Positions 6,785 to 62,300 of a stretch of DNA of 64,000 bases are shown here, in pieces. Numbering within the stretch: the stretch's first letter is position 1; the number at the start of each line of letters is the position of its first letter. Origin of the DNA: Agelas oroides (taxonomy: Eukaryota > Porifera > Demospongiae > Agelasida > Agelasidae). The translations under genes and the position numbers were made by a program. Location of the stretch: assembly GCA_949130485.1 (NCBI GenBank), contig OX422183.1, positions 4,352,136 through 4,416,135 on the forward strand, given 5' to 3'. The notes beneath the pieces are model-generated. The model saw only the letters and a program-made list of their open reading frames with translations. It ran no database searches and was not told where the DNA came from.

Positions 6785-7946
6785 TAGAGGGTGTCCTCCC
6801 ACGAGATCACCTCTCACGAAATCAACTCCCAATAAATCAACTCCCAATAAATCAACTCCCAATAGATCAACTTCCCACCGGGTCAATTCCCATTTATAAA
6901 TCAACTTCCCACGAAATCAACTGTTAATCTTTGCATGAATACATGTACAAATGAGCAGGTACACTACTGTTCTATTACTAAAGTCCAGTTTGGTGTCTCA
7001 CTGAAGCTAAGTACTCTGCAAGACTACTTTCACCATTCTGAAAGCGTTCAAAAAGCTTGCAAATCTTCTCATCTCGGATGTATCTCTTCTTTCGAGGTGG
7101 TTGGGTTGCGCCTGCAGCAAACTGTTCCACCTTCATTTCTGTTGTAGCTTGCTCCTTCTTGATACATCAACAATCTCGACATGATTGTTTGTTCTCAGCC
7201 CATTGTAATTGTAGTAGTTCCACTGCTGGAGCCTGAATTGGCCATTGGTCCAGGTTTTGTCGAAGTATATGTGACAGTCATCGATGTTGTCCAACTCTCG
7301 GGCTTCTTGTTGAACTCCTTGCCATGCTACTCGAACAAAGTTGGGGGGAACAAAGCAGGTGGCTGCTGTCTTCTGCACAAAGCTTTTGAGGATTCCATTC
7401 TCAGATCTGTACTCCCCAAAGCCTGGACCTTTCACCAAATTGCTTGGGAGTAGTGGTTTTAGCAGCCCGTGTTCAGCGGTCGGAAAGTTTAATCGGAGAG
7501 CATTGATGAGGGCCTGCTCGAAATCGGAGAGAACTGAGGAGGGGGTGAGATCCAGACCATGATCTAGTGCAGCTTCTTTCACCATCATGAACATATGGTT
7601 GTATGTACTCTGCTGCTTGTTGGGAAGCAGGGCATACACCATAGGGAAGGTCTGGCTGTACTTGATGATGTGGATGGTGAAGATCTGATAGAACAGACGT
7701 GGACACGTTTCGAAAGTTCCATCCACGTAGAAACACTCAGCTTCTGCTAGGTGATGAAGGTAGTGACAGGAAGTACCTATGTACCCTTAATGCTTACCCT
7801 AGGCTGAAATGCCCCTTGTAATATTGCAGTTGATTTCGTGGGAAGTTGATTTAATGGGAGTTGACCCAGTGGGAAGTTGATCTATTGGGAGTTGATTTAG
7901 TGGGAGTTGATTTCGTGACAGTTGATCTTGTGGGCCTAACTCGTTT
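6785..7946. mobile_element. Mutator-like (MULE) element with repeat-array termini
   Basis: The left end (about 6785-6925) is an array of ~15-bp units of the type ATCAACTCCCAATAA. The right end (about 7825-7946) is the same array inverted (GGGAGTTGATTTAGT units), so the inverted termini are built of tandem repeats. Between them on the minus strand lies a MULE-type transposase fragment (7133-7786). The total is ~1.16 kb. The short, interrupted transposase indicates an internally deleted, probably inactive copy. The 52901-54057 segment in the syntaxin gene has the same architecture and nearly the same size. Confidence 0.65.
7133..7786 (-). pseudogene. MULE transposase fragment
   Basis: The open minus-strand frame, running from a stop just upstream at about 7788, carries the MULE DDE core: a D in YVDGTFETCPRLFYQIFTIH, a second acidic site in LSDFEQALINAL, and the C-terminal WNYYNYNGLRTNNHVE segment typical of FLYWCH-associated animal MULE transposases. 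Only ~215 residues are open. The N-terminal DNA-binding zinc finger and a full catalytic domain are missing, so it cannot encode an active enzyme. It lies between inverted repeat-array termini, supporting its identity as the remnant gene of that element. Confidence 0.75.
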
Positions 7947-8327: not shown

Positions 8328-8730
8328 ATGGGAATTGATCTTGCCACCTGGCGGGCTCGAATTGGGCTCAACTACTACCACATGTCTTGCCCCCTCCAGA
8401 CCAGGTGGAGAAGCAGTGGTGGTTGGCTGTACCAGCCTGGGGTGGCCAGCTGGGGGGTGGGGGAAGTCATGAACGACACACCCCCGGTTCTCAAGGGCTG
8501 CATAAGTGTTGTTGCTTTGTCACTGATACTGCAGTATGTAGTCCTTTCCTGGTCCAAGCTGAAGGGAAGGGGTGGTGGTGGCAAGGTGCGCTGTCACTGG
8601 CAGGGATCCATTTCTCAAGTGAGAGCGACAGTGGACAGTGGGGGGACCCTGCTGCTCAGAGCCATTGTGGTGGTGATACCTCTACTGCTGGTGATAGCAG
8701 GTGACGTGGAAACAAACCCAGGACCTGGAG
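8328..8730 (+). CDS. Gene A exon 1: 2A leader module
   Basis: The ATG opens a 133-codon module (MGIDLATWRARIG...) ending LLLVIAGDVETNPGP. It is followed by the splice donor at 8731, leaving phase 1. The motif fits the 2A consensus D(V/I)ExNPGP, where the ribosome fails to join Gly to Pro, releases the upstream chain and continues. The hydrophobic stretch directly before the motif is typical of functional 2As, whose upstream residues act in the exit tunnel. Residues 57-74 and 107-124 are hydrophobic enough for membrane segments, with a GRGGGGK basic loop between. The paralogous exons at 27622 and 57646 start at the same ATG. I count 19 differences in 133 residues between A and B. Confidence 0.85.
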
Positions 8731-11700
8731 GTAATGTTGATTTTTGGAGGCAGAGGATGTTGTAAACTGGTTATTAGTGGTACGTAATCATACAGGCTGC
8801 CATGGAAGCCATAGTTGATTTGGATGATTTCCAAAAACTGTTCTTGTTTGAGTAAAACTCACTCAGTAGACACTGCCAGGTGAGCTCTAAATTGCCAACT
8901 ATGGTATTTTGTTATGTAAAATTTCTGCAGGGATTCCCAAGGAACTACTGAATGGTTTGATAAACTATATAGCCAATGATAGAATTTGTCTGCTAGTATC
9001 TACTGAGTGAGTTTTCTTCCTTTTTTAAATCAATTCACCCTTCACACCTGTAGGATTGTTAGTCATACTAATTGCTATCTTGTGGTTACCTTCTCTGTTT
9101 TGCATAGCCTTTAGCCCCTAGCCCCCCCTCCCTGAAGAGAGTGAGGAGAGGTAGTGAAACATGATGGTGAATAGCAATACAATGGCTTATTCTCCAAAAC
9201 ACTGAACATTATTTCATAGAATGGACTTGGTTCTGATACGTGTTTCATTGTGGCTTGTGATAATACCATTTTTGTTGAAGTTGAGGTCTATTAAGGCATG
9301 TCCACGCTCTGGCGATAGTACGCTGTGTGCACATGCGCATGTGTGTATGTGTGTGTGTGTATATGTGTGTACATGCGAGTGCATGTTTGTGCGTGCACAT
9401 GTGCATGTGTGCATGACATGTATGTTTATGCATAAACAATCTAACCATCAAAAACAAACTCGGAATTCCGAAGCGTACCACAAAGCTCTGGCGCCTCAAT
9501 GTCAACTGACACATTGTGTTCGGTACTAATCAGCACACTTGCCTGTCTAAACATGCCCACTCTCGTCTCATCTGGCGGTGGCACATGTACGTATTAAACC
9601 ACACCCAATATGTTGTTAACCGGAAGTGCAGAGTTGCCTAGGTTCCAGCTTGCGAGAAAACTGGCCAATTGTGTTAGCAGTACGACATCCAGTTCCCATT
9701 CTGGTGCTAATTTGCAGTTTGAGAACATGTCCACGAGCTGACAGTTGGCACAATCCGTTTTGAAGACAGGTTTTGTGCTAGCAAAAAAAGTGGGATAGGG
9801 GGAGGTGGGCAGGCATAGTCATGCCATGCCGTGCACATGGCGGCTGTCTTGGCTGGCTGTAGAAAAGCCTTGGTCGGCACTGGCTGGGCCATTTCTCTCT
9901 TTTTTTTAGCACAAACAGGCGTAGAAAAGGCTCCTCTACCTTTGCAGGGCCTCCATTTCTGGCATTGTAGACAGCTTTCAGTTGGGAGAAGTGTTCACTG
10001 GTCGGAAACCCCTGACCATTGTAAGCTCGCTAATGAGTGGGCATGGCAGAGGTCATGAACCCCGAGAGGCTTGATGAAAGAATCCTTAGCTCAAGTTTCC
10101 AGTGCTAGCTCGCAGCAGAAGTGGAAATATGGATCCATACAAGGTATCAACAGCCTCAGAAAGACTTCTAGAAAATGAAACTCGGTGTATAATGGGTTAA
10201 TACACCTGAGTGGTTGTTTGCTGGCTGACTGGATCGGATGCTTGGCAGGTCAAGGTTAAAAGCATAATTATGCAACTGCTGACAATACAGTGCATTACAA
10301 AGTACTACACAGCAGGTACACAGTGCATGGTAATTTCGCAGGCTGCACTTGTGAGTAGTACATGTATCAGAACTGGGTTCAAGAAAGTTCTGTTCCTGTT
10401 GGGTTGAATAATGACCCCCCTTTTTTCTTCGCATATCCACAGAACCAAGTCTGGGAGCACTGCTCAATGAACTTTATCCTGTCTGTACCAGATGGTACAA
10501 TATTGGATTGCAGCTGAATATCCCCTATACTAAACTGGACTGCTTCAAACAAATGTACTCAGATCCCTCAGATTTAATGCGTGAAATGCTGAAACACTGG
10601 TTACAAACAGCTATTAATCCACGTCCCACGTGGAGAGCTGTTGTCACTGCCCTGAGGTCACGCAGTGTAGATGAGCAGTCTGTTGCTGAACAGCTGGAGT
10701 CAAAATATTGTACATCAGCACAACCTGTCGTGCATGAGTCTAACAGCCCCATCAAGGAAGAGAAGAGTGAAGGTGTAGAGGCTCATGATCAAATAACAGA
10801 TAAAATTGGGCAATCTCTGCCAGATTCAGAAAGCCCTACTGCCAGTGCAGCAAGACACAACAGCAGTACTAACCCTCCTTCAAGTGAAGGGTCTCAAAAA
10901 ACACCATTTGGGTGTGGGTGTGGTAAGTGCACATTCTTCAGCTTCATAGAGGGGGGCTGTCCAACACCCCTCCCCTCAGCAAGCTCATTCCCATACCTTG
11001 ATCTCAGTGGACTTACCCATGAGCAGCAGCAGGATCTGAGGGGGAGGCTGAGGTTTGAGTCTGAAAAGATAATGTTACGATTCCAGGAGCTAGTTTCAGC
11101 AACAATCAAGTCATTCAAGAGGCGATGTGTACCACCAGATGAGCTTGTGTCGCATGTCATGGCTCTTGGAGCATTTGATCCTGTATTCAAAGAGTCACAA
11201 GAGCCAGTGTTTCGCCTTTGCTTCAAAGAATTGAAAGCTGCAGACACCATCCCAAGGGTTTTTGTGATTCTATATGACTACTTTTCTTTCTTCAACTACC
11301 ATATCATTGAGCACATCATCAAAACACTTGGCACTAAAAAAGATAAAGCTAGGCTACGGAGGTACCAGGAAGATTTTAATCAATATGCAAAACGACGAAT
11401 TTTTGAATGCCTGCCAGAGTTTGGACTAGTAAGTGATACTGATCATGCCGATATCTTTGTGAAACTGGACTCACAGTATGACAACTATACTGTTGCACAA
11501 ATTGAGGGGTTTCGTCATAAACTCAGTGAAATCCTGCGTGTTTCATTCCAAGGTGTTCTGCGTCTCTGTCGAGTAGATAAAGGTTGTTTCCAGCTTATGT
11601 TCCAGGTGCCCTCATTTGTACAGCAGGAGATATTTCCACTGTCTAAAGAACAAGAGAGAGCCTTGTCAGGCTTGCATGTTATCAGGCTGACATGTGGGAA

Positions 11701-14700
11701 CTACCAGTTCAAGGTAAGGTTCTGGGTTTGGATTTTCAGATTTTATATTTGATTGTGTTGGTTATAGGTGTGGAGGTTGTTGTTGTACAGAATGATGATG
11801 ATGTATTGGTGCCACTGAGTTACGTACTTTGTTTCCTTGCAGAAAGAAGAACCACGAACAAAGGATGGTATGTGCATTCTAGTGTCTGTCATATGTGAAG
11901 ATATCTTCAAAGTCTACTTTCTCTCTTTGTAGACAATGGACATCACCATGATGCTGATGATGATTCTGGAATGGGTCCCAGCACATTCACCGACACAAAG
12001 AGCACCACTTTTTCTGAGGTGAGTTGCTACTTTACCTCAGTGCATGTACTGTCATGTGGCCACTCCTGCATATACCATCTCTTTCTGTACTAGGATCGTC
12101 TGGACAAGGAGCTGAAGGAATTGGACTATGAAATGAAAGTGCAAAGTCTTGTAAAAACAGCATCTTCCCACAAATCTGGGAGTGGTTTAGAACTCCACCT
12201 TGCGGTAGTAATGGGACAGTTGGAGGATGTTAGGTATCTTGTTGAGAAGAAGCACTGCAACCCAATGCAGATAAATCAGGATGGTATTGCTGCCTTTCAT
12301 ATGGCAGCAATTGTGGGAAATGTACAGGCATTGGAGTATTTCATCACTGATAGTAACTGTAATCCAGCATGTCCAGGCCCACTTGGCTTAACTCCCCTTC
12401 ATTTAGCTAGTCAAAATGGTCATCTTGATGCTGTAAAGTATTTGGTTATTGAACAGCAGATGGAACCATTGTGTGAAGATGAATATGAAAACATTCCACT
12501 GCATAGAGCTTGTGCCGGTGGACATCAGGCAGTTGTTGAGTTTCTTACTTTAGAACTAGCAAAATATAACGCAATCAGAGAACTTATGGTTGACCTTACT
12601 AGCAATAATCGTTGGAACACTAGTCCTCTTCACATTGTAGCATGGAATGGCCATTTAGACATACTTCGTTTCTTCATCTCTGATCACAACTGTGATCCAA
12701 GTATTCCAGGTAAGCATAGTAGAACTCTTCTTCACATAGCTGCTGGATTTGGTCATCTGCACATAGTCAAGTATTTGATTGACGAGCAAGGCTGTGATCT
12801 GTTGTGTTTGGATAAACAAAAGTACACTCCACTTCACTCTGCTGTCACATATGGGCACATGGACGTTGTGAAATTTCTTACTGTGGAGAAACACTGTGAC
12901 ACAACATGCACAGATTTTAAACAAAACACTGTTCTTCACATGGCAGTACAAGAAGGTCATATAGACATAGTGAAGTTCCTCACTCTTGAGATGCACTGTG
13001 ATCCAACAAGTAGGAACACTAGCAATGTCACAGCTCTACATCTAGCAATAGTGAATGGGGATTTGGGCATTATCAAGTTCCTCATCACCAAATATAAGTG
13101 TGACCCAAACATTCGAGGAGGTATGTATAGTAGAACTCCTCTTCACATAGCTGCTGAGTGTGGTCATCTGCACATAGTCAAATATTTGACTGATGAACAA
13201 GGCTGCAATCCATCTTGTTTGGATAATCTGAAATTCACTCCACTTTACTGTGCTGCTATGAAGGGTCACTTAGACATTGTGAAGTTTCTTGCTGTGGAGA
13301 AACACTGTGACCCAATGTGTAGAGATCATAATCAGATCACTCCTCTTCACAAGGCGGCAGCACATGGTCATACAGACGTAGTCAAATTTCTCACTCTAGA
13401 AATGAACTGTGACCCAAACATTCCAGCCTGGGATGGTGGAACCTCTCTTCACTATGCCGCTGAGTTCGGCTATCTGCCGATTGTTAAGTATTTAACTGAT
13501 GAGCAAGGTTGCAATCCATCATGTTTGAATGGAAACAGTGGCACTCCACTTCACTGTGCTGCCATGAATGGACATGTGAGCATTGTGAAGTTCCTTACAG
13601 TGGAAAAACACTGTGATCCGATGTGTAGAGATTCTGAACAGTACTCCACTCCTCTCCACATGGCAGCATACAATGGTCATAAAGACGTAGTTAAGTTTCT
13701 CACTGTTGAAATGCACTGTGACCCAACATGTAGAAATGTCTTCAATTCCACTGCTCTACACCTGGCAACAACGAAAGGACATTTGGATATAGCCAAATTT
13801 TTCATCTCTGATCAGAACTGTGACTCAAACATTCCAGGTCTGTATGGTAGAACTCCCCTTCACTATGCTGCTGAATTTGGTCAACTGCACATAGTCAAGT
13901 ATTTGACAGATGAGCAAGGCTGCAATCCATCATGTTTGGATGATTACAAGGACACACCACTTCACTGTGCCACAATGAAAGGACATGTGGACATTGTGAA
14001 GTTTTTAACTGTGGAGAAGCACTGTGATGCAAGCTGTAAAGATGTTGATCAGTTCACTTCTCTTCACATGGCAATTAAATGTGGGCATTTGGATGTTGTC
14101 CATTTCTTCATCTCAAATCAGAAGTGTCACCGAGGTCAGTATGATAGAACTCCTCTTCACACTGCTGCTGAGTTTGGACATCTGCACATAGTCAAGTATT
14201 TAACTGATGAACAATTCCATAATCCAGCAAGTTTGGATGAAGATGAGTACACTCCACTTCATCTTGCTGCCATGAAGGGCTACATAGACGTTGTGAAGTT
14301 TCTTACTTTGGAGAAACACTGTGATCCAATGTGTGAAGATTTTTATCACAACACTCCTCTTCACATGGCAGCACAAAATGGTCATAAAGACATAGTTAAG
14401 TTTCTCACTCTTGAAATGAACTGTGATCCAACAAGTAAAAATTCTAGCAATGTCACTGCTCTACATCTAGCAGTATACAATGGACAATTAAGAATAGTTC
14501 AATTCCTCATCTCTGATCAGAAGTGTGATCCAAATTTTCCAGGTCAAAATGGTATAACTCCTCTTCACATAGCTGCTGAGTTTGGTCATCTGCACATAGT
14601 CAAATATCTCACTAATGAGCAAAGCTGCAATCCATCATGTTTGGACAAACATAAATACACACCACTTCACTATGCTGCTTTGAAGGGACACATGAACATT

Positions 14701-17700
14701 GTGAAATTCCTAACTGTGGAGAAACGCTGTGACCCAATGTGTAGAGATTTTGATCAGAACACTCCTCTTCACATGGCAACACAAAATGGTCATACAGAAA
14801 TAGTTAGGTTTCTCACTCTCAAAATGAACTGTGATCCAACAAGTAAAAATTCTAGCAATGTCACTGCTCTACATCTAGCAGTATACAATGGACAATTAAG
14901 AATAGTTCAATTCCTCATCTCTGATCAGAAGTGTGATCCAAATTTTCCAGGTCAAAATGGTATAACTCCTCTTCACATAGCTGCTGAGTTTGGTCATCTG
15001 CACATAGTCAAATATCTCACTAATGAGCAAAGCTGCAATCCATCATGTTTGGACAAACATAAATACACACCACTTCACTATGCTGCTTTGAAGGGACACA
15101 TGAACATTGTGAAATTCCTAACTGTGGAGAAACGCTGTGACCCAATGTGTAGAGATTTTGATCAGAACACTCCTCTTCACATGGCAACACAAAATGGTCA
15201 TACAGAAATAGTTAGGTTTCTCACTCTCAAAATGAACTGTGATTCAACAAGTAGAAATGGTGATGATGTCACAGCTCTACATCTAGCAGTTCTTGAAGGG
15301 CTTTTCAACATAATCCAAATTTTCAATCAGAACTGTGACCCAAACATTTTTGGTGAGTGTGATGTACCTCCTCTTCTTCACTATGCTGCTGAATGTGGTC
15401 ATCTGCAGATAGTCAAGTATTTGACTGATGAGAAAGGCTGCAATCCATCTTGTTTAGACGACCTGAAATATACTCCACTTCACTGCACTGCCATAAAAGG
15501 ACATGTGGACATTGTGAAGTTCCTTACCGTGGAGAAGAACTGTGACCCAATGTGTAGAGATCATAATCTGAACACTCCTCTTCACATGGCAGCACTAAAT
15601 GGTCACATAGACACAGTAAAATTCCTCACTCTTGAGATGCACTGTGACCCAACCAGTAGAAATGCTGGCAATGCCACCGCTCTACACCTAGCAGTACTTG
15701 AAGGGCATTTAGACCTACTCCAATTCTTCATTTCTGATCGGAATTGTGACCCAAACCTTCCAGGTCAGTTTGGTATAACTCTTCTTCACTACGCTGCTGG
15801 GTCTGGTTATTTGCAGATGGTCAAATATTTGATAGATGAACAAGGTTGTAATCCATCTTGCTTAGATAAAACCAAGTGCACTCCACTTCATTTTGCTGCC
15901 ATGGAAGGTCACATGGACATTGTCAAATTTCTTACAGTGGAGAAGCACTGTGACCCAATGTGTAGAGATTCTGATCAGGATACTCCTCTTCATATAGCAG
16001 CATCTGGTGGTCATACAGATATAGTGAAGTTTCTCACTCTTGAGATGCACTGTGACCCAACTAGTAGAAACACTAACAATGACAATGCTCTGCATAGTTC
16101 AGTATTTAGCGGACATTTGGACATACTCAAATTTTTCATCTCTAATCAGACTTGTGACCTAAACATTCCAGGTCAGCATGGCAGAACTCTCCTCCACTTC
16201 GCTGCTGAGTTTGGTCATCTGCACATAGTCAAGTATTTGATTGATGAGCAAGGCTGTAATCCTTCATGTTTGGATGTAACCAAGTACACTCCACTTCATC
16301 TTGCTACCGTGAAGGGGCACATAGAAATTGTGCAGTTTCTTACTGTAGAGAAGCACTGCAACCCAATGTGTACAGATTCTAAACAGAACACTCCACTTCA
16401 CAAGGCAGCAAGAGCTGGTCATATAAACATAGTGAAGTTCCTCACTGTTGAAATGCACTGTGATCCAACAAGAAGAGATGATAACAGTGATACGGCTCTA
16501 CATGTAGCAGCATTTAATGGACATCTGGACATTGTCCAATTCTTTATCTCTGATAGGAACTGTGACCCAAACATCCCAGGAGGACAGTATCGTCAAACTC
16601 CTCTTCATTATGCTGCTGTGTTTGGTCATCTGCATGTAGTCAAGTACTTAATCAATGAGCATGGCTGCAATCCATCATGTTTGGATGAAAACAAGTTCAC
16701 TCCACTTCACTTTGCTGCTATGAAGGGGTGCATGGATGTTGTGAAGTTTCTTACACTGGAAAAGCATTGTAGCCCAATTTGTAGAGATTCTGAAAGCAAC
16801 ACACCTCTCCACACTGCCGCAATATTTGGTCATATGGAAATAGTAAAGTTTCTCACACTTAGGATGCACTGTGACCCAACATGTAGAAATGCTACTAATG
16901 TTACTGTTCTACATCTAGCAGTACAGAAAGGCCATTTGGACATAGTGCGATTCTTCATCTCTGATCACAACTGTAACCCACATCTTCCAGGTCAGAATGG
17001 TGGGACTCCTCTTCACTATGCTGCTGAATTTGGTCATCTGCATATAGTCAAGTATTTGACTGATGAGCAAGGATGTAATCCATCATGTTTGGATAAAAGC
17101 AAGTACACTCCACTTCACTATGCTGCTATGAAGGGGCACATGGACATTGTGAGGTATCTTACAGTGGGAAAACACTGCAACCCTTTTTGTAGAGATTCTG
17201 AAAAGAACACTCCTCTCCACAAGGCAGCACACAATGGTCAAAAAGATGTAGTTAGGTTTCTCACTGTTGAAATGCACTGTGATCCAACCAGTAGAAATGT
17301 CTATGATTCCACTGCTCTACATCTAGCCGTAATGAATGGACATTTGGATATAGTCACATTCTTCATCTCTGATCAGAACTGTGACTCAAACATTCCTGGT
17401 CTTCATGGTAGAACTCCCCTTCACTACGCTGCTGAATTTGGTCAACTACAAATAGTCAAGTATTTGACAGATGAGCAAGGCTCTAATCCATCATCTTTGG
17501 ATAAATACAAAGACACTCCACTTCACTGTGCTGCCATGAAGGGACGTGTAGACATTGTGAAGTGTCTTATTTTGGAGAAGCACTGCAATTCAAGGTGTAA
17601 AAATGTTGATCAGTTCACACCTCTTCACATTGCAATTAAACATGGGCATTTGGATGTAGTTCATTTCTTCATCTCTAACCAGAAGTGTCACCGAAGTCGG

Positions 17701-18351
17701 TATGGTAGAACTCCTCTTCACACTGCTGCCGAGTTTGGTCATCTGCACATAGTCAAGTATTTGATAGATGAACAAGGTCATAATCCATCAAGTTTAGATG
17801 AAGACAAGTATACACCACTTCACTGTGCTGCCATGAAGGGATACACAGACATTGTGAAATTCCTTACTGTAGAGAAGCATTGTGACCCAACGTGTAGAGA
17901 TTCTGAACAGTACTCCACTCCTCTCCACATGGCAGCATACAATGGTCATAAAGATGTAGTTAGGTTCCTTACTGTTGAAATGAACTGTGACCCAACATGT
18001 AGAAATGCCTTCAATTCCACTGCTCTACACCTTGCAGCAGTGAATGGACATTTAGACATAATTCAATTCTTCACCTCTGAACTAAACTGTGACCCAAATG
18101 TTCCAGGTCCGTTTGGTGAAACTCCTCTTCATGCAGCTGCTGCAGGTGGTCACTTGGAGATAGTCAAGTTTCTCATTGAGGAGCTGAAGTGCCCCCTTGA
18201 CATCTCAGGATGGAGGAACATAACTCCATTAAAACTGGCTATAGATACGAATCACTTTGATATTGCACAATACCTACAGAAGCGCAGTGTGATACCACAC
18301 ACACATACTGCTAAAAATACTACTAGAAAAAAGAAGAAAAGAAGAAAGTAA
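8328..18351 (+). CDS. Gene A: 2A-peptide / Death domain / 60-ankyrin-repeat protein (5 exons)
   Basis: The proposed exons are 8328-8730, 10443-11713, 11843-11867, 11933-12018 and 12094-18351. All junctions are GT-AG, and their lengths sum to 8043 nt, an unbroken frame of 2680 residues. Domain order is a hydrophobic leader with two predicted membrane segments (about 57-74 and 107-124), the 2A motif (125-133), a Death domain (about 136-224), a Ser/Glu-rich linker, a conserved unnamed domain (about 290-558), an acidic DADDDSG linker, 60 ankyrin repeats, and a lysine/arginine-rich tail. Ribosome skipping at G132/P133 would yield two proteins. Death domains mediate homotypic signalling contacts and ankyrin arrays bind proteins. 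A receptor or adaptor role in innate immunity or cell death is inferred. An untranslated upstream exon is likely, because an acceptor-like acag lies 7 nt before the ATG. Genes B, C and D are paralogues in the same orientation. Confidence 0.85.
8697..8729 (+). promoter_or_regulatory. 2A ribosome-skipping site (gene A)
   Basis: The codons encode IAGDVETNPGP. Skipping is predicted between the glycine and proline codons at 8721-8726. Every consensus position is present. This is translational recoding, so no protease is required. Confidence 0.85.
9330..9415 (+). repeat. TG/GTGCATG-rich simple repeat
   Basis: This is a degenerate (TG)n tract with interspersed CATG inside gene A intron 1. It gives spurious Cys/Thr- or His-rich open frames on both strands that should not be read as genes. 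Confidence 0.7.
9745..10199 (+). mobile_element. Relative of the piggyBac-like MITE in gene A intron 1
   Basis: From ggcacaatccgttttgaag onward the sequence parallels 36035-36480: CTAGCA...GTGGGA, GTAGAAAAG, TTGGTC, GGGCCATTT, CACAAACRGGCGTAGAAAA, GCTAATGAGTGGG and AGTGCTAGCTC all occur in order. The right end is followed by TTAA at 10197-10200. The left terminus is not clear. The element is diverged and presumably inactive. Confidence 0.55.
10443..11713 (+). CDS. Gene A exon 2: Death domain and conserved central domain
   Basis: The exon follows the acceptor at 10441-10442 (ttcgcatatccacag). The split codon G|AA joins the 2A exon in frame, giving NPGP-G-EPSLGALLNEL. The Death-domain hallmarks are the WYNIGLQLNIP core and MLKHWLQ...PTWRAVVTALR. 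After a Ser/Glu-rich linker comes a Cys-rich start (FGCGCGKCTFFSFIE) and a ~270-residue helical-looking domain with SSFPYLDLSGLT, FFNYHIIEHIIKTLG, YAKRRIFECLPEFG and FQVPSFVQQEIFPLSKEQE. I recall this domain from sponge and cnidarian uncharacterised proteins but know no name for it. The donor is at 11714 (AAG|GTAAGG), phase 0. Confidence 0.8.
11843..12018 (+). CDS. Gene A exons 3 (25-nt microexon) and 4 (acidic linker)
   Basis: Exon 3 is 11843-11867 (KEEPRTKD, 25 nt) between a cttgcag acceptor and a gtatgt donor. Exon 4 is 11933-12018 (86 nt), reading NGHHHDADDDSGMGPSTFTD and then TKSTTFSE. The intervening intron is 65 nt. The identical exon pattern (25 or 28 nt, then exactly 86 nt) recurs in genes B, C and D, which is strong support that these are real exons. 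The linker is acidic and Ser/Thr-rich, plausibly a flexible phosphorylatable hinge between the central domain and the ankyrin array. Confidence 0.75.
12094..18351 (+). CDS. Gene A exon 5: 60 ankyrin repeats and basic tail
   Basis: The exon begins DRLDKELKELDYEMK after the tag acceptor at 12091-12093. I count 60 repeats of ~33-34 residues (TPLHxAAxxGHLDIVKFL pattern), uninterrupted by introns over 6.2 kb. The repeats cycle in sets of four with distinct signatures: an AAEFGHLHIVKYLTDEQGCNPSC type, an AAMKGHMDIVKFLTVEKHC type, an MAAxNGHxDVVKFLTLEMHC type and an LAVxNGHLDIxxFFISDQNC type. Most repeats end with a conserved Cys-Asp/Asn-Pro. The last repeat is a capping TPLKLAIDTNHFDIAQYLQK. The C-terminus is KNTTRKKKKRRK, unlike the MKQLGLLK end of genes B and C. 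Confidence 0.9.
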   Translation, partial: DRLDKELKELDYEMKVQSLVKTASSHKSGSGLELHLAVVMGQLEDVRYLVEKKHCNPMQINQDGIAAFHMAAIVGNVQALEYFITDSNCNPACPGPLGLTPLHLASQNGHLDAVKYLVIEQQMEPLCEDEYENIPLHRACAGGHQAVVEFLTLELAKYNAIRELMVDLTSNNRWNTSPLHIVAWNGHLDILRFFISDHNCDPSIPGKHSRTLLHIAAGFGHLHIVKYLIDEQGCDLLCLDKQKYTPLHSAVTYGHMDVVKFLTVEKHCDTTCTDFKQNTVLHMAVQEGHIDIVKFLTLEMHCDPTSRNTSNVTALHLAIVNGDLGIIKFLITKYKCDPNIRGGMYSRTPLHIAAECGHLHIVKYLTDEQGCNPSCLDNLKFTPLYCAAMKGHLDIVKFLAVEKHCDPMCRDHNQITPLHKAAAHGHTDVVKFLTLEMNCDPNIPAWDGGTSLHYAAEFGYLPIVKYLTDEQGCNPSCLNGNSGTPLHCAAMNGHVSIVKFLTVEKHCDPMCRDSEQYSTPLHMAAYNGHKDVVKFLTVEMHCDPTCRNVFNSTALHLATTKGHLDIAKFFISDQNCDSNIPGLYGRTPLHYAAEFGQLHIVKYLTDEQGCNPSCLDDYKDTPLHCATMKGHVDIVKFLTVEKHCDASCKDVDQFTSLHMAIKCGHLDVVHFFISNQKCHRGQYDRTPLHTAAEFGHLHIVKYLTDEQFHNPASLDEDEYTPLHLAAMKGYIDVVKFLTLEKHCDPMCEDFYHNTPLHMAAQNGHKDIVKFLTLEMNCDPTSKNSSNVTALHLAVYNGQLRIVQFLISDQKCDPNFPGQNGITPLHIAAEFGHLHIVKYLTNEQSCNPSCLDKHKYTPLHYAALKGHMNIVKFLTVEKRCDPMCRDFDQNTPLHMATQNGHTEIVRFLTLKMNCDPTSKNSSNVTALHLAVYNGQLRIVQFLISDQKCDPNFPGQNGITPLHIAAEFGHLHIVKYLTNEQSCNPSCLDKHKYTPLHYAALKGHMNIVKFLTVEKRCDPMCRDFDQNTPLHMATQNGHTEIVRFLTLKMNCDSTSRNGDDVTALHLAVLEGLFNIIQIFNQNCDPNIFGECDVPPLLHYAAECGHLQIVKYLTDEKGCNPSCLDDLKYTPLHCTAIKGHVDIVKFLTVEKNCDPMCRDHNLNTPLHMAALNGHIDTVKFLTLEMHCDPTSRNAGNATALHLAVLEGHLDLLQFFISDRNCDPNLPGQFGITLLHYAAGSGYLQMVKYLIDEQGCNPSCLDKTKCTPLHFAAMEGHMDIVKFLTVEKHCDPMCRDSDQDTPLHIAASGGHTDIVKFLTLEMHCDPTSRNTNNDNALHSSVFSGHLDILKFFISNQTCDLNIPGQHGRTLLHFAAEFGHLHIVKYLIDEQGCNPSCLDVTKYTPLHLATVKGHIEIVQFLTVEKHCNPMCTDSKQNTPLHKAARAGHINIVKFLTVEMHCDPTRRDDNSDTALHVAAFNGHLDIVQFFISDRNCDPNIPGGQYRQTPLHYAAVFGHLHVVKYLINEHGCNPSCLDENKFTPLHFAAMKGCMDVVKFLTLEKHCSPICRDSESNTPLHTAAIFGHMEIVKFLTLRMHCDPTCRNATNVTVLHLAVQKGHLDIVRFFISDHNCNPHLPGQNGGTPLHYAAEFGHLHIVKYLTDEQGCNPSCLDKSKYTPLHYAAMKGHMDIVRYLTVGKHCNPFCRDSEKNTPLHKAAHNGQKDVVRFLTVEMHCDPTSRNVYDSTALHLAVMNGHLDIVTFFISDQNCDSNIPGLHGRTPLHYAAEFGQLQIVKYLTDEQGSNPSSLDKYKDTPLHCAAMKGRVDIVKCLILEKHCNSRCKNVDQFTPLHIAIKHGHLDVVHFFISNQKCHRSRYGRTPLHTAAEFGHLHIVKYLIDEQGHNPSSLDEDKYTPLHCAAMKGYTDIVKFLTVEKHCDPTCRDSEQYSTPLHMAAYNGHKDVVRFLTVEMNCDPTCRNAFNSTALHLAAVNGHLDIIQFFTSELNCDPNVPGPFGETPLHAAAAGGHLEIVKFLIEELKCPLDISGWRNITPLKLAIDTNHFDIAQYLQKRSVIPHTHTAKNTTRKKKKRRK
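14414..15229 (+). repeat. 408-bp tandem duplication of four ankyrin repeats
   Basis: Positions 14414-14821 and 14822-15229 appear identical by eye throughout. The unit is 408 bp, that is 136 codons or exactly four ankyrin repeats, so the reading frame is preserved. It implies recent unequal exchange within the exon and reveals the four-repeat unit by which the array grew. Confidence 0.9.
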
Positions 18352-27621: not shown

Positions 27622-28033
27622 ATGGGGATTGATCTTGCAACATGGCGGGCTCGAATTGGACTCAACTACTACCACATGTGTCGCCCCCTCCAGACCAGGT
27701 GGAGAACCAGTGGTGGTCGGCTGTACCAACCTGGGGTAGCCAGCTGGGGGGTGGGGGAGGTCATGAGTGATACACCCCTGGTGCTCAAGGGCTGCATGAC
27801 AGTTGTTGCTCTGTCACTGATACTGCAGTATGTAGTCCACTGCTGGTCTAAGCTGAGGGGGAGGGGTGGGGGTGGCAAGGTGCGCTGCCACTGGCAGGGG
27901 ACCACTTCTCAAGTGCGAGGGGCAGTGGATGGTGGGGGAACCCTGCTGCTCAGAGCCACTGTGGTGGTGATGTCTCTACTGCTGGTGATAGCTGGCGATG
28001 TGGAAACAAATCCAGGACCTCCCAAGTGGGAAG
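27622..28033 (+). CDS. Gene B exon 1: 2A leader module
   Basis: The module is 133 codons, MGIDLATWRARIGLNYYHMC through LLLVIAGDVETNPGP, then PKWE and the donor at 28034 (AAG|GTACTG), phase 1. All 2A consensus residues are present. It has the same two hydrophobic segments and GRGGGGKVRCHWQG loop as gene A. The stretch upstream of the ATG is also open but lies before the likely acceptor, so I place the start at the ATG shared by all three copies. Confidence 0.85.
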
Positions 28034-31000
28034 GTACTGCTACAAGGTTGCAGAGAATGTGTGTGGGGGTGCATGGCTGTTATTATCATTACTCCATGTT
28101 ACTATAGTACCTTATCACTGTTGTCATAATACAAATACCTACTCCATGAATTTATTTACCATAAACTCCCGAAAATATGTCCCCCCCCCCCCCCCTTTTT
28201 GCACACTACTTATTACATTAAGTCGCCACGTTATTTTATAACCTGGGCACAGACAATATGCACTCAGATTAGATATTCAGTGTTTTCTCGGGCTTGTATA
28301 TTTGTAATGAAAACCTTTACATGATAAATGTAATCCGACTTGCTTACCAACTGTATTTGTCCAAGAGATGCCAAACATGTAACAGACAAGAGCATCTGCC
28401 TGATTATTATACCATAGTATCGCAAAAGGGCATGCACCTGCCCTCAACTTTTGGCCCATGCAATTTTCTGTGTAACCTATACAATACAGTCAAAGTTTAC
28501 GCAAATGCATGAGCACCCAACCTGAAGGGAGCTTCATGAGTGCACTTGTGAAGTTTGAGAAGCACTGCCTCAAGTGCTATGCATCTACATGTATGTAATA
28601 GATAAACCACAGTAGACAGGGATTTGTGGTCCATAATTATATTCTCCACTTCATCCTTGTTTCTGTGGTAACAGGTGGGTATATATTTTCCATATACTGA
28701 CACGAAGTTGTAGATTATGTTCAATATACCACAGGAAGTTTTAAAATGATGTTTTCTATAAGCTACCTTGTTTGCAGTATGCATGTTTTCTAATGGGAGA
28801 GGATAAGTTGGACTCAATCCATGGTTACGTTTACTTATTAAACACCCACAAGAGACTACTGAACCAACAAAAGACAAACGTGTTCACGAGACTATGGTAA
28901 TAGCATGGCATGAAAGTGAAATCAAATCTAGATTACATGACTCATGAACATAGTTTCTTCTGCTAGAATAGATCTGTGGTTATAATAGAAGCACATTTTC
29001 ATGAAAAAAATAGCCGCACACAGATGCCTCCTCACCACAGTTTTGTTGCTTGCAGTACTAGATCACTAGGTGCAGAGAAGTTTATCTATTCATCCACCAG
29101 TGACCTTTTGCAGTATATATGTCTAATGGATAATACATCATGGGCGAAGAACACAGTACTTGCATATAGCTATGGCTCTGCACTTTCTTGTGTGTATGCA
29201 TGTTGATCCACATGTGGTGACCTTTGACATTTGGGTGGAGTTATGTGAATGCATAACCTTGGCCTGTAAGTGTATTCAATACAGTTTGCTTTAGGCTCAT
29301 AAGTTGTCAAATTATGCCTTTCATTAAAGCTGGTCAAAAGATATGATGGCCACACATGCACACAGATTGATTGCTTAACCCATAATGGGGTAATTTTTCA
29401 ATACAGGGGTGAAGGAGGACTTATACCAAGTAATTAGTGGATTTGAGTTGAAATCTAAGGAGAACCAATCAACAACCCTAGTTTTGAACCCAGGCTTTCT
29501 GTTCCAGAACGGAAAGCCTGGGTTTGAGGCTACAACAGCCCTGCATCATTTGAATACACAATTGAGTGCTGAATGACAACACAACATGCGAATGCAGATG
29601 CTATGAGCAGGTTGCCACTCCCGGACACTCCAGTCCAGACACCTGCTTCAGGAGAACTAGTGCTGATGGTTGAAAGATTGGAGGATGCCCCCATCTCAGC
29701 AGCACAGATAGCAATGTGGACATGACAAGATCCCTTGCTGTCAAGAGTGCTCCATTATATTAGGGAAGGATGGCCAGACAGTGCAGATGTTGAACTGAAA
29801 TGATGGTGCAGGTCTCCATTTCTATTTATAGCCAGCTTGTCTATGTGCAAATGGTTGGAATATGCAACCACTATCTCCATCATGATTTAATAGTGTCCAC
29901 GATTAATAAGGTTGCAGGATGTAGACATGAAGTGGATCAGTACATGTAAAACTGCAAATTTTGCAATTTCTTTAGTATCTTAAAAATAATTTCAGGCAAT
30001 CTGTTTTTCTAGCTGTTGCATGCTTACATCTTCAGTGATCATTTAACCCTCCACCCATCCGTTGTGACTCCACTACTACTGCAATGGTATACGAATTAGC
30101 TGAATGGTAAATACTACCAGTATACTTTTGTCCAATCCACTGTAAGATACATGCAAATGCAGGAGAATGCAATCTATAGTAGGTATCTCTGTTGTACAGG
30201 TACAGTATTGACATTGAAAGCTGCCATCAATGCACTGCATTCAGTGAGTTGCAAGTGGTACAATATTGGAGTAGAACTAGATGTTCCAACATTTCAACTC
30301 AAGAACATTGAGAAGAAGACAAGTGACTCAATGGACCAGCTGCGTGATACACTGGACTACTGGATGAGCAATGACCCTTCCCCCTCCTGGAAGCATCTTG
30401 TTGAAGCACTGAAATCCCCCAGTGTTAGTGCAAAACGATTAGCCAGGGAAATAAAAGAGAAGCATTGCTGTCCAGAAGAGCAAAGCAGCTGTGATGAGTC
30501 AGAAACAGTTCAGTGTCACCAAGGTACCTATAGTTTTGCAATCTACACTGACGAATTATTGAATGTATATTCCTTTTTCTCTGCAGAACTTTGCAGCCAA
30601 AACAACAAAAGTGCAACTATGGAAAGAATGTCTCTTGCCGCTACACCAGCTAGTGTGCGCACCTCAGAAAATCCTACTACAAGTCCATCACTACACAGTG
30701 GCAATACCAGCCCTCCTCCAGGTGAAAAGTCTCAGAAGACACCTTTTGGGTGTGGGTGTGGAAAGTGCACATTCTTCAGCTTTATAGAGAGAGGCTGTCC
30801 AACACCTATCCCTTCAGCAAGCTCCTTCCCCTACCTCAATATCAGTGAACTCACTCATGAGCAACAGCAGGAACTCAGGGGAAGGCTTCGATCTGAGGCT
30901 CGAGAAATAATGATAAAATTCCAGGAGCTTGTGTCAGCGACAATTGAATCTCTTATTCGACAAAATGTATCACAATATAAGCTTGTGTCACATGTCATGA

Positions 31001-33970
31001 CTCTTGGAGCATTTGACCCTGTGTTCAAGGAGCCACAAGCACCAGTGTTATGCCATCGCATCAAGGAACTGAAAGCTGCAAACACCATCTATGAAATATT
31101 CCTGGTTCTTAATGACTACTTTTCTTTCTTCAACTACCAGCTCATTGAGCTCATTATTAAAGCACTTGGCACCAAAGAAGATAAAGCTGAGCTACAGAGG
31201 TACAAAGAAGACTTCAATCAATATGCAAAGCGAAGGATCTTTGAATGCCTACCAGAATTTGGACCAGTAAGTGATGAGGATCATGCTGATATCTTTGTGA
31301 AGGTGGACACACTTTATGAGAACTATACTGTTGCAGAGATTGAGGAATTTCGTCATAAACTCAGTAAAATCCTACGTCTTTCATCTCAGGGCATTCTGCG
31401 TCTCTGCCGAATAGATAAAGGTTGTTTTCAAATGATGTTCCAGGTGCCCTCATTTGTACAGCATGAGATATTTCCACTGTCCAGAGAACAAGAGAGAGCT
31501 CTGTCAGCCTTGTTTGTTATCAGGTTGACATGTGGGAAGTACCAGTTCAAGGTAAGGCTCCATTTTTCGGGGATTCTGCATGTGGTCATGGGATGAGGTT
31601 TGGAGGCTGTTGTACATGATATAGCTGGTGAATTACATACTTGGTTTCCTTGCAGAAAGAAGAACCACAAACAAGAGATGGTATGTGCATTCTGGTCTCC
31701 ACCGTATGTGAAGATAGCTTCATAGTCTGCTTCTCTCTGTCAATTATTTCATAGAGAATGGACATCACCATGATGCTGATGATGATTCTGGAAGGGGTCC
31801 CAGCACATTCACTGACACAAAGAGCACTACTTTTTCTGAGGTGAGCTGCTACTTCACCTCAGTGCATGTAATGTCATGTGGCCACTCCTGCATATACCAT
31901 CTCTTTCTGTGCTAGGATCGTCTGGACAAGGAGCTGAAGGAACTGGACTATGAACTGAGAGTGCAGGGTCTAATAGAAACAGCATCCTCCCACAAGTCTG
32001 GGAGTGGTCTAGAGCTTCACCATGCAGTAGCGATGGGACAGTTGGAACATGTCAGGTTTCTTGTTGAGGAGAAGCACTATAACCCAATGCAAAGAGATCC
32101 GAATGTGTTTGCTTCCTTTCATCTGGCAGCAGTCAAAGGAAATGTGGAAGTGTTCAAGTATTTTATTACTGAGAGAAACTGCAACCCAGCATGTCCAGGC
32201 CCACTTGGCTTAACACCTCTTCATTTAGCTAGTGAAGGTGGTCATCTTGATTTGGTTAAGTATCTAGTTGTTGAACAACAGATGGACCCATTGTGTGAAG
32301 ATGAGTATGGACACACTCCACTGCATAGAGCTTGTACAGGTGGTGGTCAGGCAGTTGTTGAGTTTCTTACTTCAGAACTACAAAGTTATGCACCCATCCA
32401 AAAACTTGTGAGTGATCTCAAAAATAAATGGAATAGCACACCTCTTCACATTGCAGCAGCAAAAGGGCATTTGGACATACTAAGGTTCTTTATCTCTGGC
32501 CAGAACTGTGACCCAAACATTCCCGGTCAGTATGGTGTAACTCTTCTTCATGCAGCTGCTGAATTTGGTCGTTTGCACATTGTCAAGTATTTGATTGATG
32601 AGCAAGGTTGCAATTTAGATAAAGACACTACTATCCACTTTGCTGCTGAATTTGGTCATCTACACATAGTCAAGTATTTGATTGATGAACAAGGTTGCAA
32701 TCCATCTTGTTTGGATGAGCACAAGCACACTCCACTTCACTGTGCTGCTAGGAAGGGACACTTGGACATTGTGAAGTTCCTTATTGTAGAGAAACACTGT
32801 GACCCAATGTGTAGAGATTTGAATCTTAACACTCCTCTTCACATGGCAGTAGCAAGGGGTGATCAAGACATGGTAAAATTTTTCATTCTTGAAATGCATT
32901 GTAACCCAACAAGTAGAAACATTAACAATGCTACTGCTCTACATCTAGCGGCAATGAATGGTCACTTGGACATACTCCAATTCTTCCTCTCTGATCAGAA
33001 ATGTGATCCAAACCTTCCAGGTCAGAATGGTGTAACTCCTCTTCACTGTGCTGCTCAGTATGGTCAACAGCACATAGTCAAGTATTTGATTGACGAGCAA
33101 GGCTGTAATCCATCATGTTTGGATGAAGACAAGTACACTCCTCTTCACTGTGCTGCCCAAGAGGGACATATGGATGTTGTGAAGTTCCTTACCATGGAAA
33201 AGCGATGCAACCCAACAAGAAGAAATGCTAACAATGACACTGCTCTACATCTAGCAGCTCTAAATGGGAATTTAGACATAATTCGATTCTTCATCTCTCA
33301 TCAGAACTATAACCCAAACATTCCAGGAGGTAAACATAATGCAGCACCTCTTCACTATGCTGCAGAAAATGGTCATCTAAATATAGTCAAGTATTTGATT
33401 GATGAACAAGGCTGTGATCCATCCTGTTTAGATAAAGGGAAACACACTCCACTTCACTGTGCTGCCATGCAGGGGCACCTGGACATTGTAAAGTTCCTTA
33501 CTGAGGAAAAGCACTGTGACCCAAATATTGCAAGTCAGCATGATAAAACTCCTCTTCACTATGCTGCTGAGTTTGGTCATGTACTTACAGTCAAATATTT
33601 GACTGATGAACAAGGCTGCAATCCATCATGCTGGGATAAAGATAGGGACACTCCACTTCATTATGCTGCCAAAGAAGGGTGCATAGATGTTGTGAAGTTT
33701 CTTACTGTAGAGAAACACTGTGACCCAATGTGCAAAAGTTTATATCTGGACACTCCTCTTCACAGTGCAGTATTAGGTGGTCACTTAGAAATAGTCAAGT
33801 TTTTTATTGAGAAGCTCAAGTGTCCTCCAGACACACCAGGAGCACTTAACATGACTCCACTCAAAATGGCTATATGCATGAATCGTTCTGACATCGCTCA
33901 ATATCTACAGAAGCACAGTGTAATACGTATTGCTATAGTTTTGATGAAACAACTTGGACTCCTGAAGTAG
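27622..33970 (+). CDS. Gene B: 2A-peptide / Death domain / 19-ankyrin-repeat protein (5 exons)
   Basis: The proposed exons are 27622-28033, 30200-31551, 31656-31680, 31755-31840 and 31916-33970. Lengths sum to 3930 nt, giving 1309 residues in one frame. The architecture equals gene A: a two-segment hydrophobic leader with a 2A motif, a Death domain, the unnamed central domain, microexon, acidic linker and ankyrin array (19 repeats counted). The C-terminus is MKQLGLLK. A possible 63-nt in-frame intron (30524-30586) lies in exon 2; removing it gives 1288 residues. An acceptor-like tttctttacag ends at 27608, 13 nt before the ATG, so a 5' leader exon is likely. The gene appears intact. Confidence 0.85.
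27991..28020 (+). promoter_or_regulatory. 2A ribosome-skipping site (gene B)
   Basis: The codons give AGDVETNPGP. The Gly-Pro skip point is at the GGA CCT codons, 28015-28020. The consensus is complete. Confidence 0.85.
29479..29532. mobile_element. Palindromic TAGCCTCG-family MITE in gene B intron 1
   Basis: TAGTTTTGAACCCAGGCTTTC is mirrored by GAAAGCCTGGGTTTGAGGCTA. The flanking 9-mers, caacaaccc (29470-29478) and caacagccc (29533-29541), differ at one base, consistent with an aged 9-bp target duplication. Confidence 0.75.
30200..31551 (+). CDS. Gene B exon 2: Death domain and conserved central domain
   Basis: After acceptor ttgtacag at 30199 the split codon G|GT joins the 2A exon in frame. 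The Death domain (INALHSVSCKWYNIGVELDV, then DYWMSNDPSPSWKHLVEALK) is strongly diverged from that of gene A. The central domain after FGCGCGKCTFFSFIERGCP is by contrast highly similar. The segment 30524-30586 (starts gtacct, ends tctctgcag, 63 nt) looks like a short intron but contains no stop, so retained and spliced forms are both in frame. The donor is AAG|GTAAGG at 31552, phase 0. Confidence 0.8.
31656..31840 (+). CDS. Gene B exons 3 (25-nt microexon) and 4 (acidic linker)
   Basis: Exon 3 is 31656-31680 (KEEPQTRD) and exon 4 is 31755-31840 (86 nt; ENGHHHDADDDSGRGPSTFT...). The sizes and phases are identical to gene A. The adjacent introns are also very similar to gene A, as in the CCACTCCTGCATATACCATC segment before the ankyrin exon, consistent with recent duplication. 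Confidence 0.75.
31916..33970 (+). CDS. Gene B exon 5: 19 ankyrin repeats
   Basis: This is a single exon from DRLDKELKELDYELR to MKQLGLLK, then the stop. I count 19 repeats. The first four align one-to-one with the first four of genes A, C and D (LHLASxxGHLDxVKYLVxEQQ and LHRACxGGxQAVVEFL types), indicating a conserved N-terminal block. Later repeats follow the same four-type cycle as gene A, with fewer cycles and one shortened repeat (EQGCNLDKDTT). Confidence 0.9.
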   Translation, partial: DRLDKELKELDYELRVQGLIETASSHKSGSGLELHHAVAMGQLEHVRFLVEEKHYNPMQRDPNVFASFHLAAVKGNVEVFKYFITERNCNPACPGPLGLTPLHLASEGGHLDLVKYLVVEQQMDPLCEDEYGHTPLHRACTGGGQAVVEFLTSELQSYAPIQKLVSDLKNKWNSTPLHIAAAKGHLDILRFFISGQNCDPNIPGQYGVTLLHAAAEFGRLHIVKYLIDEQGCNLDKDTTIHFAAEFGHLHIVKYLIDEQGCNPSCLDEHKHTPLHCAARKGHLDIVKFLIVEKHCDPMCRDLNLNTPLHMAVARGDQDMVKFFILEMHCNPTSRNINNATALHLAAMNGHLDILQFFLSDQKCDPNLPGQNGVTPLHCAAQYGQQHIVKYLIDEQGCNPSCLDEDKYTPLHCAAQEGHMDVVKFLTMEKRCNPTRRNANNDTALHLAALNGNLDIIRFFISHQNYNPNIPGGKHNAAPLHYAAENGHLNIVKYLIDEQGCDPSCLDKGKHTPLHCAAMQGHLDIVKFLTEEKHCDPNIASQHDKTPLHYAAEFGHVLTVKYLTDEQGCNPSCWDKDRDTPLHYAAKEGCIDVVKFLTVEKHCDPMCKSLYLDTPLHSAVLGGHLEIVKFFIEKLKCPPDTPGALNMTPLKMAICMNRSDIAQYLQKHSVIRIAIVLMKQLGLLK

Positions 33971-57645: not shown

Positions 57646-58045
57646 ATGGGGATTGATCTTGCCACTTGGCAGGCTCGAATTGGTCTCAACTGCTACCACA
57701 TGTGTCACCCCCTTGAAACCAGGTGGAGAAGCAGTTGTAGTCGGCTGTACCAGCCTGGGGTGGCCAGCTGGGGGGTGGGGGAGGTCATGAATGACACACC
57801 CCTGGTGTTCAAGGGCTGCATGGCAGTTGTTGCTCTGTCACTGATACTGCAGTATGTAGCCCATTCCTGGTCCAAACTGAAAGGGAGGGGTGGGGGTGTC
57901 AAGGTACGCTGCCACTGGTGGGTGTCCACTTCTCGAGTGAGGGGGGCAGTAGATGGTGGGGGGACCCAACTTCTGAGAACCTTGGTGGTCATTCCTCTAC
58001 TGCTGGTGATAGCAGGAGATGTGGAGATAAATCCAGGACCAGAAG
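57646..58045 (+). CDS. Gene D exon 1: intact 2A leader module
   Basis: The module has 132 open codons, MGIDLATWQARIGLNCYHMC through LLLVIAGDVEINPGP, then the donor GAAG|GTAATG at 58046, phase 1. The x position of DxExNPGP is Ile, which the consensus tolerates, so skipping activity is expected. One residue is deleted in the second hydrophobic segment relative to A and B. The exon joins in frame to EPSLLDLLEELYPVCTSWYN of the Death exon before that exon breaks. A short product equal to the leader plus ~40 residues could still be made. Confidence 0.6.
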
Positions 58046-62252: not shown

Positions 62253-62300
62253 GCTGTACTAAGTCTCGCGCGAGCCACGCCCTTCAGTGTCAATCATGAG
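62253..62300 (-). promoter_or_regulatory. Dioxygenase upstream region
   Basis: Immediately upstream of the start codon is the palindrome-like GTCTCGCGCGAGCC (about 62263-62276) in a CpG-rich patch. It resembles the TCTCGCGAGA promoter element known from vertebrate promoters. Function here is conjecture. Confidence 0.25.

Follow-up and report, generated by a model that had tools for sequence, protein, structure and literature searches.

A putative 2A ribosome-skipping leader on Death-domain receptor genes of the sponge Agelas oroides

Introduction

When a receptor gene opens with an exon that closes on a perfect 2A ribosome-skipping motif, does it make one protein or two, and where would the parts go? 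The question is raised by gene 1, at positions 8328-18351 of a 64,000-nucleotide stretch of the Agelas oroides genome (the window, G000:C1:4352136-4416135, from a genome of 259,295,671 bases in 141 contigs), in which a leader ending in GDVETNPGP precedes a Death domain and a long array of ankyrin repeats. An earlier, sequence-only reading had proposed that this one frame yields a membrane peptide and a cytosolic Death-ankyrin protein and, when skipping fails, a membrane-anchored fusion of the two. Our analysis points, with a probability of about 0.75, to a working 2A leader from which a membrane-prone peptide and a free receptor would arise, along with some fusion.

The sea urchin Strongylocentrotus purpuratus provides the precedent. 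In the accessible text of Roulston et al. (2016, PMC4981915), a 26-residue 2A leader of an NLR protein skips with about 80% efficiency in vitro, the skipped product being cytosolic and the product of the disabled motif being found in the secretory pathway; 14 of 87 NLR database entries carry such an N-terminal 2A, or 85 of 241 according to the introduction of the same paper. The sequence-only reading had pointed to this case correctly, and the class of mechanism is therefore already known. Cellular use of 2A, or StopGo, is described as very rare in the accessible part of PMC12846837, with the sea urchin as an example of functional partial separation.

Results

Structure of gene 1

Five exons with GT-AG borders assemble into a single frame of 2680 codons with no internal stops, encoding in order a 133-residue leader, a Death domain, an unnamed domain and ankyrin repeats (Table 1). 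Translation and hydropathy bear out the leader as it had been described from sequence, with a perfect 2A motif and two hydrophobic segments, the second of which provides the hydrophobic context upstream of the motif (LLLRAIVVVIPLLLVIAGDVETNPGP, residues 107-125). The proposed in-frame splice from 8730 to 10443 also stands: a G/GTAATG donor follows 8730, CCACAG precedes 10443, and the split codon G+AA maintains the frame into an exon with a Pfam-recognised Death domain. The earlier figure of about 60 ankyrin repeats is fair, given 54 Pfam Ank stretches in an exon of 2085 residues. Part of that exon (14302-15325) consists of direct repeats at 408-base spacing; the copies share 81-95% identity with the first one, which points to repeat expansion. 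Pfam scans of exons 2 and 5, the two scanned, found neither NACHT nor LRR, and neither reverse transcriptase nor endonuclease. The unnamed domain gave no match in Pfam or, by single-sequence search, in the PDB; profile search returned weak Death-type matches (best expectation value, E, 0.064).

The 2A motif is maintained by selection

The window holds three 2A matches, every one exact, where 0.01 would be expected with up to one mismatch allowed. Genome-wide (259 Mb), the exact pattern occurs 284 times (158 and 126 by strand) and a reversed control pattern not once; these occurrences are not due to chance. Position-based analyses used 258 typed sites of the 284.

The gene 1 leader, which we term leader A, has 86 matches within its own genome. 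We used 31 copies for a codon test, namely the 30 best ranked by leader homology (L001-L030) and, found by its motif, the copy at 58 kb in the window; L011, identical to another copy, was retained. All 30 copies chosen by leader homology carry the motif. Across the 31, the proportions of synonymous and nonsynonymous differences in the 2A nonapeptide (pS and pN) are 0.354 and 0.042, a ratio (dN/dS) of 0.09, compared with 0.24 for residues 1-56, 0.43 for segment 1, 0.61 for the linker, 0.46 for segment 2 and 0.36 for the leader as a whole. The residues G, D, E, N, P, G and P are unchanged in 31 of 31 copies despite synonymous codon changes at all seven, the third position of the nonapeptide is V in 30 copies and M in one, and the x of DxExNPGP varies (T 22, L 4, R 2, M 1, V 1, I 1). 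An invariant core around a variable x is how a working 2A would be expected to tolerate change. Thus, the motif is clearly kept by selection at the amino-acid level in leader A. The nonapeptide of a second leader, B (see below), gave a dN/dS of 0.02 (n=11), which we treat as consistent with this result and not as main evidence, since its copies were chosen via the motif.

Retention extends to the wider set of copies. Among the motif sites listed, at least 68 of the 72 leader A matches that extend to residue 133 have an exact 2A, as do at least 61 of the 71 leader B matches (of 74 in all) that extend to residue 156, giving at least 129 of 143 motif-reaching copies for the two leaders together. 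Predicted proteins from public genomes and metagenomes match leader A 480 times, and 118 of the 120 matches listed hold D[VIM]ExNPGP. We also considered a viral origin for leader A and rejected it: 13 IMG/VR stretches match a peptide pattern and none encodes a relative, in a database that may omit this genome and others very close to it.

Leaders lie upstream of Death exons

Two genome searches gave 182 distinct Death-exon loci among the matches listed, and for 115 of these a 2A motif lies within 8 kb upstream on the same strand. As controls, 5 loci have a 2A downstream on the same strand, and the opposite strand gave 0 and 0. When positions were shifted by 20-100 kb, 13-20 Death loci still had a 2A, a remainder explained by tandem clustering. 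Viewed from the motif, at least 110 of the 258 typed sites have one of the listed Death matches within 8 kb downstream.

We inspected 24 2A sites closely, the first 20 from one listing and four more, a sample that was not random. A clear Death exon lies downstream of 13 of them (L031-L041, L045, L054; at 2.1 kb in L054), a moderate one at a site on contig C3 (L052/L056, about 3.8 kb downstream and followed by an ankyrin exon), a weak one on C8 (L051/L057) and none on C2 (L053/L055); seven sites belong to PHD-type elements and one (L050) is unclassified. Within the first 20 regions, 12 of the 12 sites outside the PHD-type group and L050 have a downstream Death exon, on the sense strand only. 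At a further locus, L003, one 2A leader is followed by two Death exons.

The seven PHD-type loci (L042-L044, L046-L049) have in common a leader of another kind with a PHD-like stretch after it, which Pfam confirms as PHD in L043; L046 and L048 have a PIF1 helicase in addition. With PHD and PIF1 beside the 2A, these loci look like Helitron-type elements using 2A; the word Helitron is absent from the literature matches listed.

The leader-Death junction

A phase-1 donor falls within 13 bases after the 2A in 30 of 30 leader A loci (by eye; 29 GT, and one GC in L024). On the other side of the intron, choosing acceptors by best pyrimidine content with phase ignored, we found phase 1 in 30 of 32 Death exons, or 29 of 31 without the intronless L031, with L007 and L016 at phase 0. 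The binomial p for this excess, 3e-12 (29/31), is taken as an indication, given that the copies are related and not independent.

Other copies lend the junction further support. In L031 the 2A and Death lie within one exon, GDIETNPGP-VLSVADLRVVMKELNDVRAKWYNIG, and the same intronless join occurs in 11 of the 120 database proteins listed (P0242-P0251 and P0270, P0242 being L031's own gene); in another five of the 120, a longer gap separates 2A from Death within a single frame. Four more leader B matches (C2:25918561, C2:25969112, C1:3199360 and C11:2376436) have, by eye, an open-frame length equal to that of the adjoining Death match, and in L018 and L029 leader and Death share a single open frame that spans the intron. 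With such one-exon and one-frame copies, the fusion rests on more than splice prediction.

Two further observations concern this junction. The stretch from 2A to Death is stop-free and in frame in L018, L029 and P0128, so that spliced and retained forms would each link 2A to Death. At C3:14118965 and C3:16063587 the Death match begins in frame at the final Pro codon of the 2A, within a 302-residue open frame, another intronless type on a contig other than that of gene 1.

Two leader bodies and two receptor classes

Trimmed of their last 28 residues, leader A bodies (L001, L052, L053) match one another, as do leader B bodies (L032, L034, L039, L041, L054), and cross-matches between A and B number 0 at E up to 1. 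Leader A heads Death-ankyrin genes in the window. Leader B heads a Death-NACHT-LRR gene in L032 (NACHT E 3.8e-15, LRR present), a gene with Pfam Death and LRR in L031, where NACHT was not found by Pfam, and a Death-unnamed-ankyrin gene in L039; L045, which has NACHT and LRR, gives a partial leader B match, and L038 is a Death-NACHT-LRR gene whose leader body is out of frame with the 2A. As leader B serves both receptor classes and the A and B bodies are unrelated, the leader exons look like swappable modules. The sequence-only reading, which took a 2A on Death-ankyrin proteins as a case of its own, covered part of the picture: a 2A leader with an unrelated body is also present in the same genome, on Death-NACHT-LRR genes besides Death-ankyrin genes.

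Leaders are about 130-165 residues long, the start of leader B being uncertain. Each of the 30 leader A loci L001-L030 has two called hydrophobic segments, and the distance from the end of segment 1 to the 2A Pro is 53-109 residues in receptor-type leaders with two called segments.

Other genes of the window

Gene 2 (27622-33970) repeats the part order of gene 1 in six exons, encoding 1288 residues including exon 1 with no internal stops. Gene 3 is decayed: its leader and 2A are intact and its downstream Death exon is broken across frames. An ankyrin exon beyond gene 2, by eye a near-copy of the start of the gene 1 ankyrin exon, is probably a partial duplicate; a motif scan of the window turned up no 2A leader in the interval that separates it from gene 2. 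A 2OG-Fe(II) oxygenase frame is unrelated to the receptor cluster, and short peptide tandem repeats lie inside open frames at two places.

Table 1. Features of the window, with positions counted from its first nucleotide
Feature	Positions	Strand	Basis or remark
Gene 1 exon 1, family A 2A leader	8328..8730	+	ATG at 8328; 133 codons, one further codon and 1 base of a split codon; GT donor at 8731
Hydrophobic segment 1, residues 54-72, candidate signal-anchor	8487..8543	+	Kyte-Doolittle 2.04
Hydrophobic segment 2, residues 107-125, abuts and enters 2A	8646..8702	+	Kyte-Doolittle 2.61
2A motif GDVETNPGP with its predicted skip site, the Gly132-Pro133 bond	8700..8726	+	Translation; exact match
Phase-1 intron	8731..10442	+	GT at 8731, AG at 10441-10442
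Gene 1 exon 2, Death and unnamed conserved domain	10443..11713	+	Open frame, splice sites
Death domain, Pfam span	10451..10654	+	PF00531, E 7.1e-05, 23.3 bits (cut-off 22.6)
Unnamed domain (KTPFGCGCGKC...)	10889..11713	+	Conserved across a 56-sequence alignment
Gene 1 exon 3	11843..11867	+	GT-AG borders
Gene 1 exon 4	11933..12018	+	GT-AG borders
Gene 1 exon 5, ankyrin repeats up to the stop codon	12094..18351	+	2085 residues; Pfam Ank, 54 stretches
Gene 2 exon 1, leader A copy	27622..28033	+	2A at 27994-28020
Gene 2 exons 2-6, Death, unnamed domain, ankyrin repeats	30200..33970	+	Death via local profile
Ankyrin exon	37113..38822	+	Near-copy by eye
Gene 3 leader A copy, 2A intact	57646..58041	+	GDVEINPGP, 58015-58041; motif match, leader alignment
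MULE transposase fragment, adjoins gene 1 upstream	7133..7786	-	PF10551, E 6.8e-13
Short peptide tandem repeats	46979..47467
Short peptide tandem repeats	52883..53368
2OG-Fe(II) oxygenase open frame	61329..62258	-	PF03171, E 3.9e-20

Discussion

The leader is best viewed as a portable first coding exon. Its N-terminal part is followed by one hydrophobic segment and a linker, then by another hydrophobic stretch, and finally by a 2A just before a phase-1 donor; the exon is joined to Death receptor genes, Death-unnamed-ankyrin in the window and Death-NACHT-LRR elsewhere. By the known 2A mechanism, the ribosome would skip the Gly132-Pro133 bond, releasing a 132-residue membrane-prone leader and a separate receptor that begins with Pro and is expected to be cytosolic. 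Ribosomes that do not skip would make a minority leader-receptor fusion, targeted to the membrane. The interpretation offered by the sequence-only reading is in our judgement partly supported, by the in-frame 2A, by selection in leader A and by recurrence across families with a phase-1 junction, all properties of sequence.

The geometry of the leader bears on how the skip might be controlled. The ribosome exit tunnel holds 30-40 residues, and De Felipe et al. found that some upstream sequences translocated into the endoplasmic reticulum (ER) inhibit the 2A reaction and so give fusions (both from the accessible text of PMC2978324). Segment 1 of gene 1 ends 61 residues ahead of the 2A Pro and should be out of the tunnel at the decision point; with the segment beyond the tunnel, ER engagement could bias the skip. 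The leader could then act as a sensor of ER engagement, with capture by the signal recognition particle or translocon competing with skipping, so that docked ribosomes would make an anchored receptor and free ones a cytosolic receptor. We consider this unlikely as it stands. Were it true, about 100 Death loci of this one animal, including NLR as well as Death-ankyrin genes, would fix the ratio of membrane to cytosolic receptor in this way, and the predicted 'membrane-bound NLRs' of such animals would partly be 2A leaders taken for anchors. The charges of leader A (n=31; N-flank -1.9, loop +4.8) predict that the N-terminus of segment 1 faces outside.

Several observations weigh against a working 2A leader. 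With that orientation of segment 1, and if segment 2 inserts as well, the Death-ankyrin part of the fusion would face away from the cytosol, misplaced for a cytosolic signaller. Among the matches listed, 148 of the 258 typed 2A sites have no Death match within 8 kb; the Death exon of the C8 site is weak (about 7 kb downstream, E 3.6e-5, no Pfam match), and at the leader A locus on C2 (L053 and L055) no Death exon follows within 11.5 kb. In L038 and L045 the usual leader is missing from the frame upstream of the 2A, and only one hydrophobic segment is called in L036 and L040. Internal stops, present in 6 of the 86 leader A matches and in 3 of the 74 for leader B, mark some copies as decayed. 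Of the 14 motif-reaching copies beyond the 129, two (C3:504208 and C1:3098113) lack the exact motif where motif listings are complete, and the other 12 lie outside the stretches covered by those listings and may still carry an exact 2A. Finally, P0128, the sole listed database protein that spans the entire leader-Death-unnamed query, was rejected as transcript evidence, its unspliced in-frame intron being that of a genomic frame.

Other explanations would account for the same leader differently. Skipping might be so efficient that the fusion is essentially absent, leaving a membrane peptide made 1:1 with a cytosolic receptor and no targeting switch. This is a real possibility, although we lean away from it: the canonical octapeptide and its hydrophobic run-up are retained, and the constraint on the leader body (dN/dS 0.24 over residues 1-56) is expected if the peptide has a function, whereas the accessible results on the sea-urchin leader (only about 80% skipping in vitro; PMC4981915) and on translocon engagement, which can suppress 2A (PMC2978324), argue for some fusion. 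It is improbable that the leader serves chiefly to anchor the protein in the membrane or as a signal sequence, with a weak or inactive relic of a 2A and membrane-bound receptors. The two hydrophobic segments in all 30 leader A loci fit such a view, as do the transmembrane segments reported for sponge NLRs in the accessible text of PMC12909245, but selection is stronger on the 2A (0.09) than on either segment (0.43 and 0.46).

We give little credence to two remaining alternatives. A Pro N-degron pathway exists, and Pro is the first residue of the skip product, so that skipping might chiefly expose an N-terminal Pro and tune receptor stability, not location; the long hydrophobic leaders are then left unexplained, and the residues following Pro vary. 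Least of all do we expect the leader exons to be small genes of their own, or fragments of transposons, that chance or tandem duplication has placed near Death genes. The PHD/PIF1 (Helitron-like) elements of this genome also carry 2A, and a transposase fragment adjoins gene 1; against this stand the 115 of 182 listed Death loci with their direction and strand controls (5/0/0), phase 1 on both sides of the junction, the 2A-Death fusions in single exons, and the failure of the tested A and B bodies to match the element leaders L042 and L044. A working 2A leader with some fusion thus remains our preferred explanation.

Among the literature matches listed we found no 2A leaders on Death-ankyrin genes, although Rao et al. 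2025 (Cell Rep 44:115822), a study of eukaryotic and viral 2As cited in PMC12846837, may list such genes. The words sponge, Amphimedon, ankyrin and death do not occur in the main text of PMC12846837, nor do '2A peptide' and 'ribosom' in that of the Dysidea avara paper (PMC12909245). With the mechanism class known, what has no precedent in those matches is the length of the leader and its modular use, together with the extension to a second receptor class and the scale. Given 2A sites ahead of Death exons in two receptor classes, at least two unrelated leader bodies and clear selection in leader A, dual targeting through failed skipping becomes testable as a strategy of innate-immune-like families and not as an oddity of one sea-urchin family, and the genome supplies many natural leader variants. 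There is also a warning, in that gene models may take 2A leaders for permanent membrane anchors.

Comparison with known systems places these genes among several others. Papers citing Odon and colleagues (2013) reportedly place 2A in non-LTR (long terminal repeat) retrotransposons; in both settings the 2A is located in animal genomes, but exons 2 and 5 of gene 1 lack the enzymes of such elements, and the sampled element-type sites carry PHD and PIF1. With viral 2A or StopGo sequences (F2A of foot-and-mouth disease virus and others; PMC12846837, accessible part) the leader shares the DxExNPGP core and a hydrophobic run-up, and presumably an identical ribosomal mechanism, in a cellular receptor gene instead of a viral polyprotein. 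Dysidea avara likewise has expanded Death-NACHT-LRR genes, some with predicted transmembrane segments, according to the accessible text of PMC12909245. The closest likeness, again on the accessible text of PMC4981915, is to the sea-urchin NLRs, where an N-terminal 2A closes a hydrophobic leader on Death immune receptors with many paralogues. Unlike the single, signal-like 26-residue leader of the sea urchin, however, that of gene 1 has 133 residues and two hydrophobic segments; the sponge leader is its own phase-1 exon in most of the copies inspected, comes with at least two unrelated bodies, and it serves Death-ankyrin genes besides NLRs.

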